From positions 1-64,000 of the forward strand of contig MEPW01000050.1 of NCBI GenBank assembly GCA_001769975.1: a stretch of DNA of 64,000 nucleotides, written 5' to 3'. The notes under the pieces are model-generated. The model saw only the letters and a list, made by a program, of their open reading frames with translations. It did not search any database and was not told where the DNA came from. This DNA comes from Bdellovibrionales bacterium RIFOXYA1_FULL_36_14 (GTDB lineage Bacteria > Bdellovibrionota > Bacteriovoracia > Bacteriovoracales > Bacteriovoracaceae). Positions 39,039-49,118 of the stretch are shown here, in pieces (the stretch's first letter is position 1; every line of letters begins with the position of its first letter). A program made the translations under genes and the position numbers.

Positions 39039-40802
39039 CTAAACACCTCTAATATTAAAACTTAATTGATCAAGAAGAAGGTTTTCCCAGCTTAAAAGCA
39101 TTGTGTCAAACGCCTCTGTATCTTTTATATGATAAACCCCATTTTCCATTATCAAATATTTTTGGTGGGTAAAATATTGCATACTATTTTTCATCACTGG
39201 CATGGAAAAACTTTCAGAAAAAGTAATAACTCGATTAATTCCTCTTTGCCAACTATAGACTTCCTTAGATTTTTTCCAATAATCTTCTAATTTAAATTCT
39301 GCCATTTCAGTATGCAAAGCTTTAATGGTTAGGGCCGATATATAATAAGCCTCATGAATATACATCATAGATTTAGAAAAAATTCCAATTTTCATTATAA
39401 CATTATAAAAATCCCGGGCCGAAAGGGTTAAGACTTCATCATAACTGGTTAATGCTTTACCCGTACACCACTCAATCAGAGCTTTTGCCTCAAGTACAAA
39501 TTCTTTCACAGTGGGAAGGTAAAACTCATACTTCATATGTTTTCTCTGTGATAACAAAAATCTTCTAAGACCTGAAACATCAGTGATCGAACCATTAAAT
39601 AAATTAATCCAAGCAATATTTAAAATCCAGGGGGTGAGGAAATGATGAAGGATACTATTTTTAAAATAAAGCATTTCTTTTCTACAATTTACATTAACGG
39701 CATAAAAAACATGACCTAAGTTTTCTTCGCCAATGACATCAAATTTTTTATTATTCAAAAATAAATCAATTGAATCTTCCAAGGTTCTTTCTAATTTGGC
39801 TTCTCGCAAGGTATCCACGATTGGGATATTAAAAACTTCACAGTAATGGACAATGGATTTTGCCTTGGCAAAGATCTCATCCCATTTCAGCGCACCAGTT
39901 GGTTCATCAAGCATAATTAATGCTAAAAGCGAAGAAGGTGTTACCAAAATATTATTGCCCACTTCTCTAAAACAGTTGAATGCCAGAGTCTGGATATTTT
40001 TTTTAGAATTTTCCAAATGAGGTGGGTCAACCGGCTGACCAAGTCTGATATGAACACTCCCCATTCTATAGGCAAAAATTTTAAAAATTTTAAAGAGTCT
40101 AAAAAAGCTCTCTTTATGTTTTTTAGCTCCATCTAATTCTCGAGCGAGAGAACTAGTTTCAGGGACATATTCATGAACAATACTTACCGGGATAAATTTC
40201 AGTGGTTTTTGGTGATCACTGCTTAAGGCATCATGGGCCTCCAAAAGCATTTGATAGAGACCATATCTAGGTGACATAAGCTTACCTGACCGACTCCGAC
40301 CACCTTCAAAGAAAAACTCAATTGGATAGCCCTTATATAGCAAAAAATAAAGATAAGCTTCCAAAGTCAATTTATATAAAATATCGCTACCAAAACTTCT
40401 ACGAATAAAAAAGCAGCCACACCAGCGAAACAATGTTCCCAGTAGTGGGATATTGAGGTTAATTCCTCCTGCCACAAATACCGGAAACTTAAATTTTTTA
40501 TAAATAATATAATTTAAGGCCACATAATCAGCATGAGATTGATGATTAGGAACTAGGACGACATGGTTGTTGGAAACAAGCTTTTCAAGATCATAATCAA
40601 CCACGGTGTCGATGTTAATACCTTCATAAAGATGAATGAAGGTGGTATCTATAAAATGAACTAGTAAACGAGCAACCTTTTCAGAAAACTGAGCTTTGAT
40701 CTCGTCAACAATTTTGATAACTTTTTCTTGTTCTTCAATCTTACCCCGAACGCGATCTTTTAATTTTGGATATGAAAGAACTATTTCATATATTTCTTTC
40801 AT
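39039..40802 (-). CDS. plsB: PlsB-like glycerol-3-phosphate acyltransferase
   Basis: Acylates glycerol-3-phosphate at the inner membrane, the first step of phospholipid synthesis. 587 residues, shorter than enterobacterial PlsB (about 800). Acyltransferase motifs in order: NHQSHADY with His87 and Asp92 (HX4D), GGINLNIPLLGTLFRWCGCFFIRRS, FFEGGRSRSGK and FIPVSIVHEYVPE. The long C-terminal half is helical. It lies between the IMPDH-like gene (14 bases) and folE (adjacent). Ribosome site is weak, suggesting coupling to the preceding gene. Confidence 0.85.
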   Translation of the reverse strand: MKEIYEIVLSYPKLKDRVRGKIEEQEKVIKIVDEIKAQFSEKVARLLVHFIDTTFIHLYEGINIDTVVDYDLEKLVSNNHVVLVPNHQSHADYVALNYIIYKKFKFPVFVAGGINLNIPLLGTLFRWCGCFFIRRSFGSDILYKLTLEAYLYFLLYKGYPIEFFFEGGRSRSGKLMSPRYGLYQMLLEAHDALSSDHQKPLKFIPVSIVHEYVPETSSLARELDGAKKHKESFFRLFKIFKIFAYRMGSVHIRLGQPVDPPHLENSKKNIQTLAFNCFREVGNNILVTPSSLLALIMLDEPTGALKWDEIFAKAKSIVHYCEVFNIPIVDTLREAKLERTLEDSIDLFLNNKKFDVIGEENLGHVFYAVNVNCRKEMLYFKNSILHHFLTPWILNIAWINLFNGSITDVSGLRRFLLSQRKHMKYEFYLPTVKEFVLEAKALIEWCTGKALTSYDEVLTLSARDFYNVIMKIGIFSKSMMYIHEAYYISALTIKALHTEMAEFKLEDYWKKSKEVYSWQRGINRVITFSESFSMPVMKNSMQYFTHQKYLIMENGVYHIKDTEAFDTMLLSWENLLLDQLSFNIRGV

Positions 40803-40816
40803 AATTACAACCGATG

Positions 40817-41878
40817 TTATTTAAGTCCATGAGGTCTTGACTCATGGGCCCCTGCTAATGTCATTTCCATGAATAAAGAATTTTCATACATATCCGAAAT
40901 ATTCTCACATCCCATATAAGTCATCCCGGACCTTATTCCACCAATGAGTTCCCATACCACATCTTTCACACTACCTTTACATGGTATATAAGTCGATTCA
41001 CCTTCAGCTGCCATCCCTTTGGGTAGTTCACCTCTCCAAGAAATTTGCGCACTTTTACTGGCCATTCCCCGATAAAGCTTCATTCCTTTTTTGATTTCTC
41101 CGGGTGTTTCAAGCGTTCCTGATAAAAGTGATCCAAGCATGACTGAGTCTGCTCCACACGCCAAAGCTTTAATAATATCTCCCGAGTTGGTTATTCCACC
41201 ATCGGCAATCACCGGAACACCGTATTGGCGAGCTTTCTCAACGGATAGACTTATCGCGGTTAACTGAGGTACACCATGTCCGGTTATTATACGGGTCGTG
41301 CACATAGAGCCAGGGCCAATGCCAACTTTGACTGCATCCGCGCCATGGTCAATCATTCGAGTTACCCCATCGCCCGTGGCCACATTTCCAGTTATCACAT
41401 CTATTTGGGGATAATTTTTTTTAACGTAATCTAGAGTTTCCATAAGCATAATGGAATCACCATGTGCAATATCAATTGTGAGTATTAAAGCACCAGCTTC
41501 AACTAATAGATCTGCTCTTTTTTTACCATCTTCTTTAACTCCGATAGAGGCACACACGGGAGTATTTATTTTTTTTTCTTTTTGTGCTTTTAATACATTT
41601 TTAATGATTTCTACTTGTTCTTCTGGATTCATAAACCGGTGTAAAATACCAATTCCGCCAAGTTCTGCCATGGCAATAAGCATATCAGTTTCAGTTATCG
41701 TGTCCATATTGGCTGAAATAACTGGAATATCGAGTGCATAATTCTTAGTAATTTTTGTTTTTAAATTTGGATATCTTCTGGATGAAATTTCAGAAAACCT
41801 GGGTACAAGCAAAACATCATTAAACGTCAGCCCTTTTTGTCGTCTTACAATATCTCTTGCTGAAAAAATTAACTCCAT
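40817..41878 (-). CDS. IMP dehydrogenase / GMP reductase family enzyme without CBS domains
   Basis: 353 residues, against about 490 for typical IMPDH; the CBS pair between the first strands and the catalytic core is absent. The catalytic Cys is in [15 protein letters not shown], preceded by IDIAHGDS and followed by [27 protein letters not shown]. After the flap, [10 protein letters not shown] and AAEGES resemble GMP reductase, and the IMPDH Arg-Tyr pair is not seen where expected. The C-terminal end [10 protein letters not shown], however, resembles IMPDH. It may be a CBS-less IMPDH or a GMP reductase; I leave the symbol blank. ATG at 41878 has AGGA 8 bases upstream. Confidence 0.85.
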
Positions 41879-41893
41879 CAATCAAATCCTGGT

Positions 41894-43736: not shown

Positions 43737-44645
43737 ATGCTAAGTTGTCTAAATATCTACAATATGCCCCCGGTTGAATTACCTCGAAACGTATTTGAAG
43801 GTTTTTTTACCATCACTACCTGCCAAAGAACCCTGATCGTCGGTTTGGAGGACATTAAACACCACATGGGCCCTAACGTTATGCATATTAAAGGCAGCGA
43901 AGCCTATGGATACCTGCTAGAAACCATTACTGGTCTTAAAAGCCAGGTGCTTGCAGAAAGTGAAATAGTCTGCCAATTTAAAAGTGCTTTCAAATCCTAT
44001 TTAGAAACCACCAAAAGAGATGGTCGCCTTATCACTATTTTGGAAAAATTATTCAAAGACAATAAGGACATTCGAAGTTTATTTTTAAAAAATATTGGTC
44101 AGCAATCATACACTGGAATCAGCAAAAAGATTTTACTCAATAAATCCTCCTACAACGAGGTTCTAATTTTAGGCTCCGGAACCTTGGCCCAAGCGTTAAT
44201 TAAACTGCTTTCTAAAAAATTTAAAATATTTTTAAGCGCTAGAAACCTGCAAAAAGTTGATGAACTGAAAAGACAGTTTCATTTTCAACAAATTCCTTGG
44301 CCGATGATTGAAGAATTTAAAAAAATTCCCAATATACTGTCCACCATCGGAGCGTATAAAACTTACTTTGACGATTCCTTTTTTATTGATTGGAACAACA
44401 TTCATCATGCCAAAGGAATTTTTATTGATTTAGGTTCCCCTTCCACGATCCAAACCAGTCTCATGATCAACGATGGCGTCTACAGACTGTTTAATATTTT
44501 TAATGAGTGCAAAGCCTTGAGTCAGGAAAAAGAACTCCAAATTATCAACGCCAAAAATGCAATCAAAGATATAGTAGATAAAAGAATGAAATATTTTGAC
44601 ATATCCCTACTTAATAACAATAAGGAATTTCTTCTTGGTTTATAA
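43737..44645 (+). CDS. hemA: Glutamyl-tRNA reductase, short divergent form
   Basis: Reduces glutamyl-tRNA to glutamate-1-semialdehyde, first step of the C5 haem route. The catalytic Cys29 is in TITTCQRTLIV (canonical STCNRTEIY). GYLLETITGLKSQVLAESEIVCQFKSAF matches the GL.S.VLGE.QI.GQ block. A NADPH-binding stretch is VLILGSGTLAQALIKLLS. At 302 residues against about 420, it lacks about 20 N-terminal residues before the Cys and most of the C-terminal dimerisation helices. The start at 43737 has AGGA upstream; the frame opens at 43662. The downstream hem genes make the identity firm despite divergence. Confidence 0.88.
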   Translation: MLSCLNIYNMPPVELPRNVFEGFFTITTCQRTLIVGLEDIKHHMGPNVMHIKGSEAYGYLLETITGLKSQVLAESEIVCQFKSAFKSYLETTKRDGRLITILEKLFKDNKDIRSLFLKNIGQQSYTGISKKILLNKSSYNEVLILGSGTLAQALIKLLSKKFKIFLSARNLQKVDELKRQFHFQQIPWPMIEEFKKIPNILSTIGAYKTYFDDSFFIDWNNIHHAKGIFIDLGSPSTIQTSLMINDGVYRLFNIFNECKALSQEKELQIINAKNAIKDIVDKRMKYFDISLLNNNKEFLLGL

Positions 44646-46173
44646 AATCGGAAGCCGCAAGAGTTTGCTTGCTAAAACTCAAAGCGAACAAATCAAAACC
44701 ATCCTAGAGACTCAAACGACCTCTTCGTTTGAAATGGTTTTTATTACCACTCAAGGCGATCAGGACCAACATACTCCTTTGTGGCAGATGGAAATCAATA
44801 ATATATTTACCCGTGAACTTGATCATGCTTTAGTTGATAAGCAAACCGATCTTAACATTCACTCATTTAAGGATCTTGGTTTACAAAGACCTCCAGCGCT
44901 CACCATTGGAGCACTCACAAAAAGATCTCTTCCTCATGATATCCTACTTATCAAAAATCAAACGATCAAAGACCTATTTAATAATAAATTACCTTCGCTT
45001 AAAATTGGCACCAGTTCTCCACGCCGCACCAGCAATATCAACCGACATCTCAAAAACCTTCTATCCTACCAAGGTAAATTAAGCGTTTCCTCTCTCCGGG
45101 GCAATGTCAATTCACGAATCGAAAAACTTCAAAATGGTGAATTTGACTGTATCATCCTAGCAATGGCAGGGCTGGAACGATTGGCCATGGATACTAGTGC
45201 CCGTAAACAACTTACATTGCTTTTAAGAGATCTTAATTTTCTTATTTTACCAATCTCTCTTTTTCCCGGAGCAGCCGGCCAAGGAACCCTAGCTGTCGAA
45301 ATCAGGCAATCCAGTGAGAAACATCTTTCGCCAATCTTGGCCAGCATTCATGATCCCGCCAGCGCTTTAGAAGTCACCAAAGAAAGAGAAGCCTTTGCTC
45401 ATTATGGGGGTGGTTGTCATTTACCGGTTGGTATTTTTGTAAAAAAATTTGAAAAAAGCTTTATTCATTGTCATCAAGGTTTTCATCAAGACCAAGAAAT
45501 CAATATTCTAAAATTAGATATGGAAAGAAATAGACCAATAAACTCTCCATATATCTTTATCGGACAAACTCGTGAGGGCCAAACGCCTGCTCTTAAGAAC
45601 CGGGAATTTATATTCAATCGCTTATTAAGTTACCAAACTATCCCGTACAACGGCTCCTTAAATAACAATATTGTTATAACTTCCAATAACGTTTTAAGTG
45701 CTATTAACTTTGAAAAATTTGATCCCACCACCCTTTGGACTTCGGGACTGCACTCTATGCAAACGATGTTTAAAAGAAAGTGTTGGGTCAATGGCACAGG
45801 GGATTTTCTAGGAGAAGAAGGACTCCTCGACTTTAAAAATTCCCTTTTTGTAAATATTTTTCTAAAAGATTTAGCATGGTCGTATCTAACCAATGATGAA
45901 TCGAAATCAACTCTTGGACCATCTATTCCAACTTACACGAGAATTACCAATACCGTCTCTACTCAATATCTTGAACAAATAGAGAAAACTCAAATTTTTT
46001 ACTGGATGAGTTTTTATCAATATGAGGCTTATCTAAAAATAGCCCCAGGAATTGCCTCTAAGTGCCACTGCTGTGGTATGGGAAAAACATATAAACACTT
46101 TAAAGAAAGAAATATTCCTGCTATACCATTTATTAACTTGAATGAATTTTACCAATGGCTGGATGAAAAATAA
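44635..46173 (+). CDS. hemC: Porphobilinogen deaminase fused to a uroporphyrinogen-III synthase-like domain
   Basis: The N-terminal half (1-275) is HemC: YKIGSRKSLLAKTQS, NIHSFKDLGLQ (catalytic Asp), GTSSPRRTSNI, LRGNVNSRIEKL, GAAGQGTLAVE and GGGCHLPVGIF, whose Cys carries the dipyrromethane cofactor. The second half (about 340-512) is HemD-like in layout (NIVITSNNVLSAI, TLWTSGLHSMQTMFKR, IFYWMSFYQYEAYL, CHCCGMGKTYKHFKERNI) but divergent. Together they would make uroporphyrinogen III from porphobilinogen. Start is TTG at 44635, 8 bases after AAGGA, overlapping hemA by 11 bases; an upstream TTG at 44596 lacks a ribosome site. Confidence 0.88.
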   Translation: MVYKIGSRKSLLAKTQSEQIKTILETQTTSSFEMVFITTQGDQDQHTPLWQMEINNIFTRELDHALVDKQTDLNIHSFKDLGLQRPPALTIGALTKRSLPHDILLIKNQTIKDLFNNKLPSLKIGTSSPRRTSNINRHLKNLLSYQGKLSVSSLRGNVNSRIEKLQNGEFDCIILAMAGLERLAMDTSARKQLTLLLRDLNFLILPISLFPGAAGQGTLAVEIRQSSEKHLSPILASIHDPASALEVTKEREAFAHYGGGCHLPVGIFVKKFEKSFIHCHQGFHQDQEINILKLDMERNRPINSPYIFIGQTREGQTPALKNREFIFNRLLSYQTIPYNGSLNNNIVITSNNVLSAINFEKFDPTTLWTSGLHSMQTMFKRKCWVNGTGDFLGEEGLLDFKNSLFVNIFLKDLAWSYLTNDESKSTLGPSIPTYTRITNTVSTQYLEQIEKTQIFYWMSFYQYEAYLKIAPGIASKCHCCGMGKTYKHFKERNIPAIPFINLNEFYQWLDEK

Positions 46174-46184
46174 GGAGAACACCA

Positions 46185-47456
46185 ATGTGGGAACATGTAG
46201 AGCTTTTTGATATATCCAAAGACCTCGTACCTGGTGGGGTTCATTCGCCGGTTCGAAGCTTCAAGGGTCTCAAATCTACTCCGCGATTTATTGAATCGGC
46301 TGAAGGTGCTTACTTACAAGACGTTGAAAAAAAAACCTATATTGATTTTTGCATGAGTTTTGGACCTTTAATATTAGGTCATAAGGATGAAGATGTTAAA
46401 GAGGAAGCAATGTGTGCTCTTAACAAAGGTTGGACTTATGGTGCCTGTGAACCCTACTCATTAGAACTTGCTGAATTTATCGTTGATAATATCTCCTTCA
46501 TTGAGCAAATTAGGTTTGTTAATTCTGGTACTGAAGCCGTCATGACAGCCATTAGGTTGGCCCGGGCCCATACGGAACGTGATAAAATAATTAAATTCAA
46601 TGGATGCTACCACGGTCACACTGACTCTATGTTAATCAAAGCTGGTTCGGGAGTCCAAAATATTTCAGAGACTTCTTCTAAGGGTATACCACAATCCATC
46701 GCTAACGATACCATCGTGTTTGAACTGGGAGATGAAGAGCAAATTAAAACGTATATGAAAAAACACGGTAAAGAAGTTGCCGCTATTATCATTGAACCAC
46801 TTCCTGCAAACTGTGGATTATTACCACAAAAAAAGGAGTTCCTAACCTTTTTGAGGGAGGAAACCACCAAATACAACGCACTTTTGATCTTTGATGAAGT
46901 CATCACCGGTTTTAGAGTTGCTTTTGGTGGTATGAGCGCTAAGCTTGGGATTATTCCTGACTTAGTCACCTATGGTAAAATAATTGGAGGAGGCTTTCCG
47001 GTAGGTGCGGTAGCCGGACCTAAAAAGATCATGCTTAATCTTGCGCCGGTGGGTAACGTCTATCAGGCAGGAACTTTATCTGCCAATCCAGTCGCTATGG
47101 TGGCGGGACTTAAAACCCTCCAAAAGCTAGAACCTAGTGCTTACGATCAACTTAGCAAATATTCCGCCAATATCACCACCATCTTGAATCAATGGCTGCA
47201 AAAATACCAAAACGGTCGATACAAAATGTTTTCCATTGTTAGGGAAGATTCCCTGTTTTGGATCACTCCCAAAGAAAATATTACCCGGGCCTGCGATATT
47301 CCAAGCGACCTAAGCGAAGAGTTCAGTCCGTTATTTGAAAGCATGTTAGCACACGGAATCTATCTGGCGCCTAGCGCCTACGAAATAGGCTTTATTTCCC
47401 TGGCCCACAATAACAGTGTTTGCAATCAACTTAGCAAAAGACTTTGGAATAACTAA
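46185..47456 (+). CDS. hemL: Glutamate-1-semialdehyde 2,1-aminomutase
   Basis: PLP enzyme making 5-aminolevulinate. 423 residues. VPGGVHSPVRSF, FVNSGTEAVMTAIRLAR, KFNGCYHGHTDSMLIKAGSG, LIFDEVITGFRV and the PLP lysine in LVTYGKIIGGGFPVGA are all standard. The start follows AAGGAG; it is 11 bases after hemCD, and its stop overlaps the hemE start (TAATG). Confidence 0.97.
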   Translation: MWEHVELFDISKDLVPGGVHSPVRSFKGLKSTPRFIESAEGAYLQDVEKKTYIDFCMSFGPLILGHKDEDVKEEAMCALNKGWTYGACEPYSLELAEFIVDNISFIEQIRFVNSGTEAVMTAIRLARAHTERDKIIKFNGCYHGHTDSMLIKAGSGVQNISETSSKGIPQSIANDTIVFELGDEEQIKTYMKKHGKEVAAIIIEPLPANCGLLPQKKEFLTFLREETTKYNALLIFDEVITGFRVAFGGMSAKLGIIPDLVTYGKIIGGGFPVGAVAGPKKIMLNLAPVGNVYQAGTLSANPVAMVAGLKTLQKLEPSAYDQLSKYSANITTILNQWLQKYQNGRYKMFSIVREDSLFWITPKENITRACDIPSDLSEEFSPLFESMLAHGIYLAPSAYEIGFISLAHNNSVCNQLSKRLWNN

Positions 47457-48475
47457 TGGGACTTTTTGAAAATAGAAACACCCAACTTCCGCTTTGGTTT
47501 ATGAGACAGGCCGGCAGATATCATAAACACTATCAAAAATTTAAAACACAATATAGTTTTGAAACATTATGTAAAACCCCTGAACTTGCCTGCGAAGTAA
47601 CCCTCGGTCCAGTCAATGATTTTAATTTTGATGCCGCTATCCTTTTTTCAGATATCCTTTTTCCCTTGGAAAGACTGGGTATGGGGCTTACCTTTGATCC
47701 TGCTCCAACACTTTCCAAAAAAATTTTAAATGCTCATGATGTTAATTTACTTCAACCAATTTCCTCACCAGATGAGTTTTATCTTTTTCAAAAAAAAGCA
47801 CTCACTCTCATTAAAGAAAAATTATCCCCCAATAAGACCCTGATTGGTTTTGTAGGAGCTCCTTTTACTCTTTATACTTATGCCTGCGAGGGTAGTCACT
47901 CTGGAAATCTAATTAACGCCAAAGCTGGGTTATATAATGGTACTTTTAAAGCTTTTTCAAAACTTATTATAAGTGAGCTTTTGGCAAATATGTCGGTTCA
48001 AGCAACTGCACCCCTTGATGCGATGGCCATTTTTGATACTGCAGCTGGAGAATTATCTTTACAAGATTATGAACGCTTTATTATCCCCATGAATAAACAA
48101 CTCACCAAAAGTTTTAAAGAATTTTTTCCATACGTAAAAATCATTTATTACTCCAAACACACTAACCTCGATTACCTCAAAAAAATTAATGATAATAATA
48201 TTGATGTGCTGGGGATCGATTGGAGAATCAACATGGCCGATGCACTAAATGAATTTGCATCACAATATTACGTACAAGGAAACATCGACCCAACTTGGCT
48301 AACTCTATCCCAAGAACATTTGAAAAGTAATCTTGATATATACATGAATCGCACTTTAAGAAAAACCACAAATTTACATAAGTGGATTTTTGGTTTAGGC
48401 CACGGAGTGCTTAAAGAAACACCTGAAGAAAATGTCAAATTCGTAAGCAATTATATTAAAAACTACCAGTTTTAA
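47456..48475 (+). CDS. hemE: Uroporphyrinogen decarboxylase
   Basis: Removes four acetate carboxyls to form coproporphyrinogen III. 339 residues. The signature MRQAGRYHKHYQKF near residue 17 holds the substrate Arg residues; FSDILFPLERLGMGL, GFVGAPFTLYTY and NIDP at the end of the barrel are conserved. It shares a base with the hemL stop. It is last in hemA-hemCD-hemL-hemE; hemB, hemH and the rest are elsewhere. Confidence 0.96.
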   Translation: MGLFENRNTQLPLWFMRQAGRYHKHYQKFKTQYSFETLCKTPELACEVTLGPVNDFNFDAAILFSDILFPLERLGMGLTFDPAPTLSKKILNAHDVNLLQPISSPDEFYLFQKKALTLIKEKLSPNKTLIGFVGAPFTLYTYACEGSHSGNLINAKAGLYNGTFKAFSKLIISELLANMSVQATAPLDAMAIFDTAAGELSLQDYERFIIPMNKQLTKSFKEFFPYVKIIYYSKHTNLDYLKKINDNNIDVLGIDWRINMADALNEFASQYYVQGNIDPTWLTLSQEHLKSNLDIYMNRTLRKTTNLHKWIFGLGHGVLKETPEENVKFVSNYIKNYQF

Positions 48476-48478
48476 TTA

Positions 48479-48637
48479 TTAATTCGTAGATTCACGTACG
48501 CTTGGATCAACAACTTTACAATTTTCACAGGAAGGAATTTTTTTGGTAGCATTAGTTTTTTTACTCACTTGAGCAACCACTAAAAAGCTGCTTAGAACTA
48601 ACCCTAAAAAAGCAAAAATCACTATTATCTTTTTCAT
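48479..48637 (-). CDS. 52-residue secreted CxxC peptide (copy A)
   Basis: Begins MKKIIVIFAFLGLVLSSFLVVA, a textbook signal peptide with likely cleavage after Ala22. It leaves a 30-residue mature peptide containing SCENCKVVDPSVRESTN at its end. Cys37 and Cys40 form a CxxC. AAAGGGGG lies just upstream of the ATG. It begins 25 bases after copy B (48663-48821), so both are likely on one transcript. The two align over 52 residues with no gap and share SSFLV.A, C.NCKVV and STN at the stop. That shared frame, length and ribosome site make it a real gene despite its size. No known family; the hemE stop is 3 bases away on the other strand. Confidence 0.7.
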   Translation of the reverse strand: MKKIIVIFAFLGLVLSSFLVVAQVSKKTNATKKIPSCENCKVVDPSVRESTN

Positions 48638-48662
48638 CTAAGCCCCCTTTGCAATGCTGCTA

Positions 48663-48821
48663 TTAATTTGTCGATATACCATTTTGAAGCCTGACAACTT
48701 TACAATTTATGCAATCAGGTGGACCTTTCGGAGAATCAGGGTTCGCTCGTTCTTTAGCAAAAACCAAAAAACTACTGGAAACTAACATCAAAAATATTCC
48801 TAAAATTATCAGTCTTTTCAT
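48663..48821 (-). CDS. 52-residue secreted CxxC peptide (copy B)
   Basis: Begins MKRLIILGIFLMLVSSSFLVFA with probable cleavage after Ala22. The mature 30 residues run through a Pro-rich stretch (NPDSPKGPPD) to CINCKVVRLQNGISTN. Cys37 and Cys40 are at exactly the positions of copy A. GAGGG precedes the ATG. Upstream, a TTGCAA-17-TAATAA could be a promoter at about 48850-48880. Role unknown: secreted signal, thiol-redox or metal-binding peptide are possibilities, none shown. Confidence 0.7.
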   Translation of the reverse strand: MKRLIILGIFLMLVSSSFLVFAKERANPDSPKGPPDCINCKVVRLQNGISTN

Positions 48822-48956
48822 TCAACCCTCTAAAAATAAAAATCATTAACTAAATTTCATTATTAATACTCAAGGAGCCCTTTTGCAATATTTTAGCCAA
48901 ACTATATAGTAATTCTTACAATCGTTATTTTCGCAACTGTACAACAATACATTCAG

Positions 48957-48992
48957 CTCTGGGCGTTATCTTACATTAACCCAGAACCAGAG
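48957..48992. repeat. Alternative inverted repeats upstream of the peptide pair
   Basis: CTCTGG (48957-48962) can pair with CCAGAG (48987-48992), or TCTGGG (48958-48963) with CCCAGA (48980-48985). The 297 bases from 48822 to 49118 between divergent genes hold this, a possible promoter and scraps resembling the peptide-gene ends (minus strand, about 48895-48955 and 49025-49075). No further intact frame was found. Confidence 0.4.
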
Positions 48993-49118
48993 GTAGCATT
49001 TTGCCTTTTTAGCTATCCCTCTTGTGCACCTCGCAATGCTTCATTATTTACTTGCATCACTTTTGACATATACCATCATTTTGGTGATAATGCTTAAACC
49101 TCTAACCTAAGTAATTCT

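Follow-up and report, generated by a model that had tools for sequence, protein, structure and literature searches.

Gram-positive pro-peptide pheromones (Phr, PapR, NprX; RRNPP) are made as Sec pre-peptides of about 40 to 50 aa with short active tails, and class IIb two-peptide or Sec-dependent bacteriocins are encoded by tandem genes for similar small exported peptides. Within the phylum Bdellovibrionota, the closest described protein is Bd0108 from the hit locus of Bdellovibrio bacteriovorus, which is small, Sec-exported, and intrinsically disordered, carries a C56-C59 disulfide in a CxxC motif, binds the periplasmic protein Bd0109 weakly, and controls pili and the switch between predatory and free-living states (PMC4267844). 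For comparison with this protein, we relied on the NCBIfam model NF053838 together with PMC4267844 and PMC3818213.

The window analyzed here, a 64,000-nt stretch of the genome of Bdellovibrionales bacterium RIFOXYA1_FULL_36_14, carries on its minus strand two previously unlisted genes, pepA (48663..48821) and pepB (48479..48637), of a length that typically escapes annotation. Read from the sequence, the pair has exactly the coordinates, strand, lengths, and 25-nt spacing that an earlier note on this DNA had proposed. Each gene comprises 52 codons with an ATG start and, as that note had also stated, a good Shine-Dalgarno sequence: AGAGGG for pepA (48826..48831, minus strand; GAGAGGA in the sister genome) and AAAGGGGG for pepB (48643..48650, minus strand, within the gap; AAAGGGAG in the sister genome). 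The predicted exported products, MKRLIILGIFLMLVSSSFLVFA followed by KERANPDSPKGPPDCINCKVVRLQNGISTN for pepA and MKKIIVIFAFLGLVLSSFLVVA followed by QVSKKTNATKKIPSCENCKVVDPSVRESTN for pepB, share one layout, in which a signal peptide leads into a hydrophilic tail that contains one P-x-C-x-N-C-K-V motif and terminates in STN. The CxxC at residues 37 and 40, the common C-x-N-C-K-V-V, and the STN end described in the note are indeed present in both peptides. Cleavage is predicted after Ala22, judging from the A/V-x-A site that precedes it and from a signal peptide recognized by eye and by hydropathy; this alanine is invariant in pepA, pepB, and their same-genus orthologs. The mature peptides would have ∼30 residues and a mean hydropathy of about −1. 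A lipobox Cys at +1 of the signal peptide, the mark of a lipoprotein, is absent near the cleavage region of pepA, pepB, the pepB ortholog, and the sister-genus copy, while the pepA ortholog has a single Cys16 without a canonical lipobox. A Pfam VKOR match of pepB (E = 0.014; 16 bits against a cut-off of 27.5) was rejected as a coincidence of a membrane helix and Cys.

The two peptides align end to end without gaps, with 46% of pepA residues identical and a BLOSUM62 score of 97 against a shuffle mean of 20.7 (0/5,000 shuffles); their mature halves alone score 44 against 19.5 (1/5,000). Their likeness is thus not due to chance, which bears out the note's view of a duplication. Searching the whole source genome with either peptide returned the other copy at an E value of about 1e-6 and no third copy, in an assembly that is about 86% complete.

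Both genes recur in the same order, orientation, and context in a metagenome-assembled genome of the same genus, Bdellovibrionales bacterium RIFOXYC1_FULL_37_79 (G001; contig C22, MEQB01000022.1; locus L038 denotes positions 72000-88000 of this contig). Here, pepA′ (L038:7150-7302) and pepB′ (L038:6965-7123) are separated by 26 nt and encode 50 and 52 aa, respectively, so that the strict conservation of length suggested by the note applies to three of the four genus copies. The STN end is kept in all four, yet a probable relative in the sister genus (see below) ends in …TNNLG. The pepB pair differs at 25 nucleotides with a dN/dS of 0.12 and the pepA pair at 40 nucleotides with a dN/dS of 0.33, falling to 0.19 in the mature part; the core of pepA, residues 29 to 43 (DSPKGPPDCINCKVV), has accumulated six synonymous and no non-synonymous changes, and is better conserved than the signal half. 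When substitutions were randomized, so few amino acid changes without a stop arose in 0/20,000 sets for pepB and in 0.2% for pepA; 62 to 69% of random sets would create a stop codon, none of which is seen in the orthologs. One might argue that ORFs so tiny and AT-rich, and without a family match, are spurious or decaying pseudogenes, but the two intact orthologs, the absence of stops, the retained ribosome-binding sites, and a dN/dS well below 1 refute this idea, to which we attach a negligible probability. Because of the intact orthologs, the low dN/dS, and the randomization result, we conclude that pepA and pepB are real protein-coding genes under purifying selection, and that both paralogs are older than the split of the two species. 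The homologue search and the substitution ratio were checks the earlier note itself had named; the lack of homologues and the frameshifts that would have spoken against it did not turn up, and its argument from conserved frame to function is borne out by a synonymous bias in both copies.

A search beyond the genus pointed to one further candidate, a 51-aa ORF MNRLVLVVGIAAIVLIGILVFVDYSGRAVGDIKRHPACENCRVSDGTNNLG (…KRHPACENCRVSDGTNN…) in a genome of the sister genus (G022), which is preceded by GGAG before its ATG, shares the start and hydrophobic N-terminus of pepA and pepB, and has CENCRV with cysteines at positions 38 and 41. Its mature part scores 51 against mature pepB, compared with 16.7 ± 3.8 in shuffles (0/5,000), a match that was selected from many genomes and draws its independent support from guaB linkage and clade membership. 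The ORF sits just upstream of guaB and of the gene for a GPAT-like acyltransferase, and in the window this gene pair is found downstream of pepB, on pepB's own strand (guaB at 40817..41881, 6.6 kb away; the acyltransferase at 39039-40802). By our estimate, a random place falls in such a 7-kb stretch of a 3- to 4-Mb genome about 0.2% of the time. In addition, a guaB tree groups the three carrier genomes (G000, G001, and G022) in a single clade (support 97/95), as expected for a trait inherited once. We therefore consider the sister-genus gene a probable, though not proven, homologue of pepA and pepB. This copy has a long hydrophobic segment without an obvious A-x-A site. The invariant part of the family is a hydrophobic N-terminus (signal or anchor helix) together with P-x-C-x-N-C-[KR]-V, set within an otherwise hydrophilic tail for which no structure is predicted.

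Profile searches with full-length and mature-only models in 129 family and 369 phylum genomes yielded, G022 excepted, only weak signal-peptide matches or ORFs without a signal. The DNA pattern for P-x-C-x-N-C-[KR/QH]-V matched in eight other genomes of the family, no more than its reversed control did, and the match in G022 alone belongs to a short ORF that begins with a hydrophobic stretch. Likewise, when synteny was used to search 30 relatives upstream of guaB, nothing convincing emerged besides the sister genus, and viral contigs, phages, plasmids, Pfam, NCBIfam, PHROGs, PADLOC, and the PDB held no credible match to the peptides. With 369 Bdellovibrionota genomes, Pfam, NCBIfam, phages, plasmids, and the PDB yielding no additional member, the family, as far as sequence searches reach, is confined to one clade, a property the earlier reader could not have known from the window.

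How, then, does this family compare with Bd0108, a parallel that the note had missed? Both belong to the same phylum and are Sec-exported, with a signal of about 22 residues (assigned by eye and hydropathy in pepA and pepB), no known domain, a short mature tail, disordered in Bd0108 and presumed to be so in the peptides, and exactly one CxxC. However, Bd0108 is longer (about 97 to 101 aa versus 52), has CxEC where the peptides have CxNC[KR]V, and is encoded next to the RHS-like Bd0109, whereas the duplicated peptide genes have hemE and a DUF2333 gene as neighbors. Against NF053838, pepA reached only an E value of 0.093 (13.2 bits against a cut-off of 40, and over residues 1 to 25, i.e., the signal peptide), and pepB gave no match. 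The true Bd0108 homologues that we retrieved have a signal, a low-complexity tail, and, in almost every case, exactly one CxxC, and their NPGxDPNEA and CxEC motifs are absent from pepA and pepB. Mature-part alignments with these homologues mostly fell within the shuffle range, the best pairing with a CxxC homologue being matched by 16/1,000 shuffles. Membership in the Bd0108 family was therefore rejected, given the failed family model and the lack of consistent similarity in the mature parts; common ancestry is not demonstrable, the likeness being one of layout, and by this analogy the peptides may work like Bd0108. Bd0108 proper was not detected above the cut-off in the sampled genomes of this bacterial family, and G000 and G001 gave no match at all. 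Among the Bd0108 homologues of genus g65 (L166-L185), two Cys in a CxxC are nearly always the only ones; the homologue at L183 (G147) runs across two frames and contains an in-frame TAA, and that at L185 has lost the CxxC spacing.

The immediate surroundings of the peptide genes are sparse. The operon contains the two peptide genes and nothing else; hemE, encoding uroporphyrinogen decarboxylase (47456..48475, plus strand; Pfam 7.6e-80), converges on pepB and is context outside the system. On the other side, a gene for a DUF2333 protein (PF10095; 49119..50012, plus strand; Pfam 2.9e-30), with one N-terminal membrane segment and the rest presumably periplasmic, is transcribed divergently from pepA. 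The 297-nt intergenic region between them (48822..49118), presumed to hold the promoters, retains several blocks between the two species (CATTGCGAGGTGC-CAAG, GGCAAAATG-TACCT, GATTGTAAGAATT, and TTGGCTAAAATATTGCAAAA) and carries a promoter-like TTGACA-17-GATAAT for the DUF2333 gene (49063-49091, plus strand); going by this sequence conservation, it is possibly a shared promoter/operator region for pepA and DUF2333. A structured RNA upstream of pepA was rejected, as positions 48822-49118 have no Rfam match and their predicted folding is not unusual (z = −0.88).

Of 369 Bdellovibrionota genomes, exactly three encode DUF2333, and these are the three peptide carriers, although in G022 it lies on a different contig from the peptide gene. 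This co-occurrence is suggestive of a link, yet we rejected it as proof of partnership, the three carriers being sister lineages whose kinship alone can explain it; DUF2333 was possibly gained laterally by this clade long ago. In G022, the DUF2333 gene (L129:603-1526) precedes two SPFH/band-7 genes, and the gene divergent from it (L129:29-409, minus strand) specifies a secreted, Cys-containing protein distinct from the peptides, 126 aa long, with three repeats ending in C-[VI]-N-x-N-F and no Pfam match. Small exported Cys proteins thus adjoin DUF2333 in both genera.

In the sister genome, a streptosactin-like cassette (L038:3899-6946, plus strand) lies between hemE and pepB′, comprising a 37-aa Cys-containing precursor MNEIKFANKDELLKSSSTVEGGSCHCQSGSCGGGRML, a radical-SAM/SPASM maturase, and an ABC exporter. 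The best NCBIfam match of the maturase is GggB (6e-50), albeit far below the cut-off, and of 59 genomes searched, only this one has the maturase, which is absent from the window genome and 57 others. Like the streptosactin-type sactipeptide locus (gggABC), the peptide locus offers a small Cys-containing peptide gene nearby; pepA and pepB are unlike that system in sequence and export route. A link between the peptides and this radical-SAM RiPP cassette was rejected: the window genome has the peptides and lacks the cassette, and hence the peptides do not depend on it.

AlphaFold2 predicted for both pepA and pepB an N-terminal helix to residue 26-29 and nothing confident beyond it (mean pLDDT, 67.3 for pepB, modeled alone, and 65.9 for pepA, modeled with an alignment); as very small proteins model poorly, a missing predicted fold is weak evidence of disorder. 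In a diderm, Sec export brings a peptide to the periplasm and not to the medium. Because this route ends there, and because the pair has no linked gene for a receptor, protease, exporter, or immunity function in either gene context, we favor stand-alone envelope peptides. In the mechanism that we propose, Sec would move the peptides across the inner membrane, where they would be cleaved after Ala22 or, as the sister-genus copy suggests, kept as single-pass anchors. The two cysteines would close a CxNC disulfide loop in the oxidizing periplasm, and the disordered tail might act as in Bd0108, by low-affinity docking of its loop-bearing segment onto an envelope protein. The tails of pepA and pepB, each conserved within its ortholog pair and different from one another, would be consistent with two partners or with two sites. 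The DUF2333 protein encoded divergently from pepA, with a soluble domain expected in the same compartment, would be the first candidate. The best explanation we can offer, by analogy, is thus a bicistronic operon whose two paralogous products, members of a small family specific to this clade, are Sec-exported envelope peptides with an oxidized CxNC loop in a disordered tail docking on a partner; we tentatively assign a probability of about 0.4 to this reading as a whole.

Other readings share much of this evidence. Instead of docking, CxNC and the following Lys/Arg might bind a soft metal (Cu, Zn, or Fe) or cycle between thiol and disulfide without any protein partner. The CxxC with its flanks makes up precisely the invariant core, CxxC-[KR] is reminiscent of the thioredoxin-type motif CGPCK, and a tetrapyrrole gene cluster adjoins the peptides. 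However, hemE is merely convergent and absent from the sister-genus locus, neither gene context has an adjoining metal-responsive or metal-transport gene, His/Met ligands are not conserved, and no thioredoxin fold is predicted, leaving a metal or redox role somewhat unlikely. Alternatively, the helix could be the working part, with the peptides regulating an inner-membrane complex as small single-pass membrane proteins and the CxNC tail serving as a periplasmic sensor or cross-link. The predicted helix and the long hydrophobic segment of the sister-genus copy with no evident A-x-A would suit this, yet Ala22 is invariant in the genus copies with small residues at −3, and the tail core of pepA is better conserved than its signal half; we consider it unlikely.

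A pheromone role, in which the tails of exported pro-peptides would be processed and sensed and two copies would mean two signals, appears equally doubtful. The pre-peptide size, a duplication with divergent tails that are each conserved between species, and the STN shared by four genus copies are in keeping with it. Set against RRNPP pheromones, though, the peptides have a CxxC, a diderm host whose Sec route leads to the periplasm only, and no conserved active C-terminus beyond STN, which itself follows the most variable residues and is lost in the sister genus. No RRNPP-type cytoplasmic receptor gene is present at the window or the sister-genus locus, and a histidine kinase, processing protease, or exporter is likewise not adjacent. 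A two-peptide, Sec-dependent toxin or bacteriocin against competitors or prey would be in line with two exported peptides of similar size and mostly cationic character encoded in tandem, a predatory phylum, and the unrelated RiPP cassette at the same locus in the sister genome, but we regard it as very improbable: differing from class IIb bacteriocins, the operon has no immunity gene or dedicated exporter, the peptides have no double-glycine leader and hydrophilic mature parts, no bacteriocin family matches, and selection has been purifying and not diversifying. Indeed, neither gene context places a receptor, protease, dedicated exporter, or immunity gene beside the peptides, which disfavors a quorum-sensing or bacteriocin cassette. 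Of the functions floated in the earlier note (a signal, a redox or metal ligand, or a toxin-like effector), the classical signal and the toxin are weakened on these grounds while the redox or metal ligand keeps its place; right about the genes and their family-like duplication, the note was reasonable but unspecific about function.

Either way, pepA and pepB constitute a narrow, new family within a general class already known, that of small exported CxxC peptides, and a case in which a conserved, duplicated tiny gene with a probable sister-genus relative could be documented from sequence evolution alone. If their action were Bd0108-like, envelope regulation by exported disordered CxxC peptides would be a recurrent theme in Bdellovibrionota and not the peculiarity of one locus. 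In its boldest form, which we think improbable, this disulfide-looped, disordered P-x-C-x-N-C-[KR]-V family, duplicated in one genus, would be a Bd0108-type envelope or pilus regulator in a lineage without detected Bd0108, and hence a case in which exported disordered CxxC peptides had evolved into switches a second time, independently, within the predatory phylum.

Elsewhere in the window, the hem cluster contains a 525-aa ORF (44596-46173) that reads like hydroxymethylbilane synthase (HemC) with an extra C-terminal part, maybe uroporphyrinogen-III-synthase-like, and whose upstream end overlaps a hemA-like ORF.
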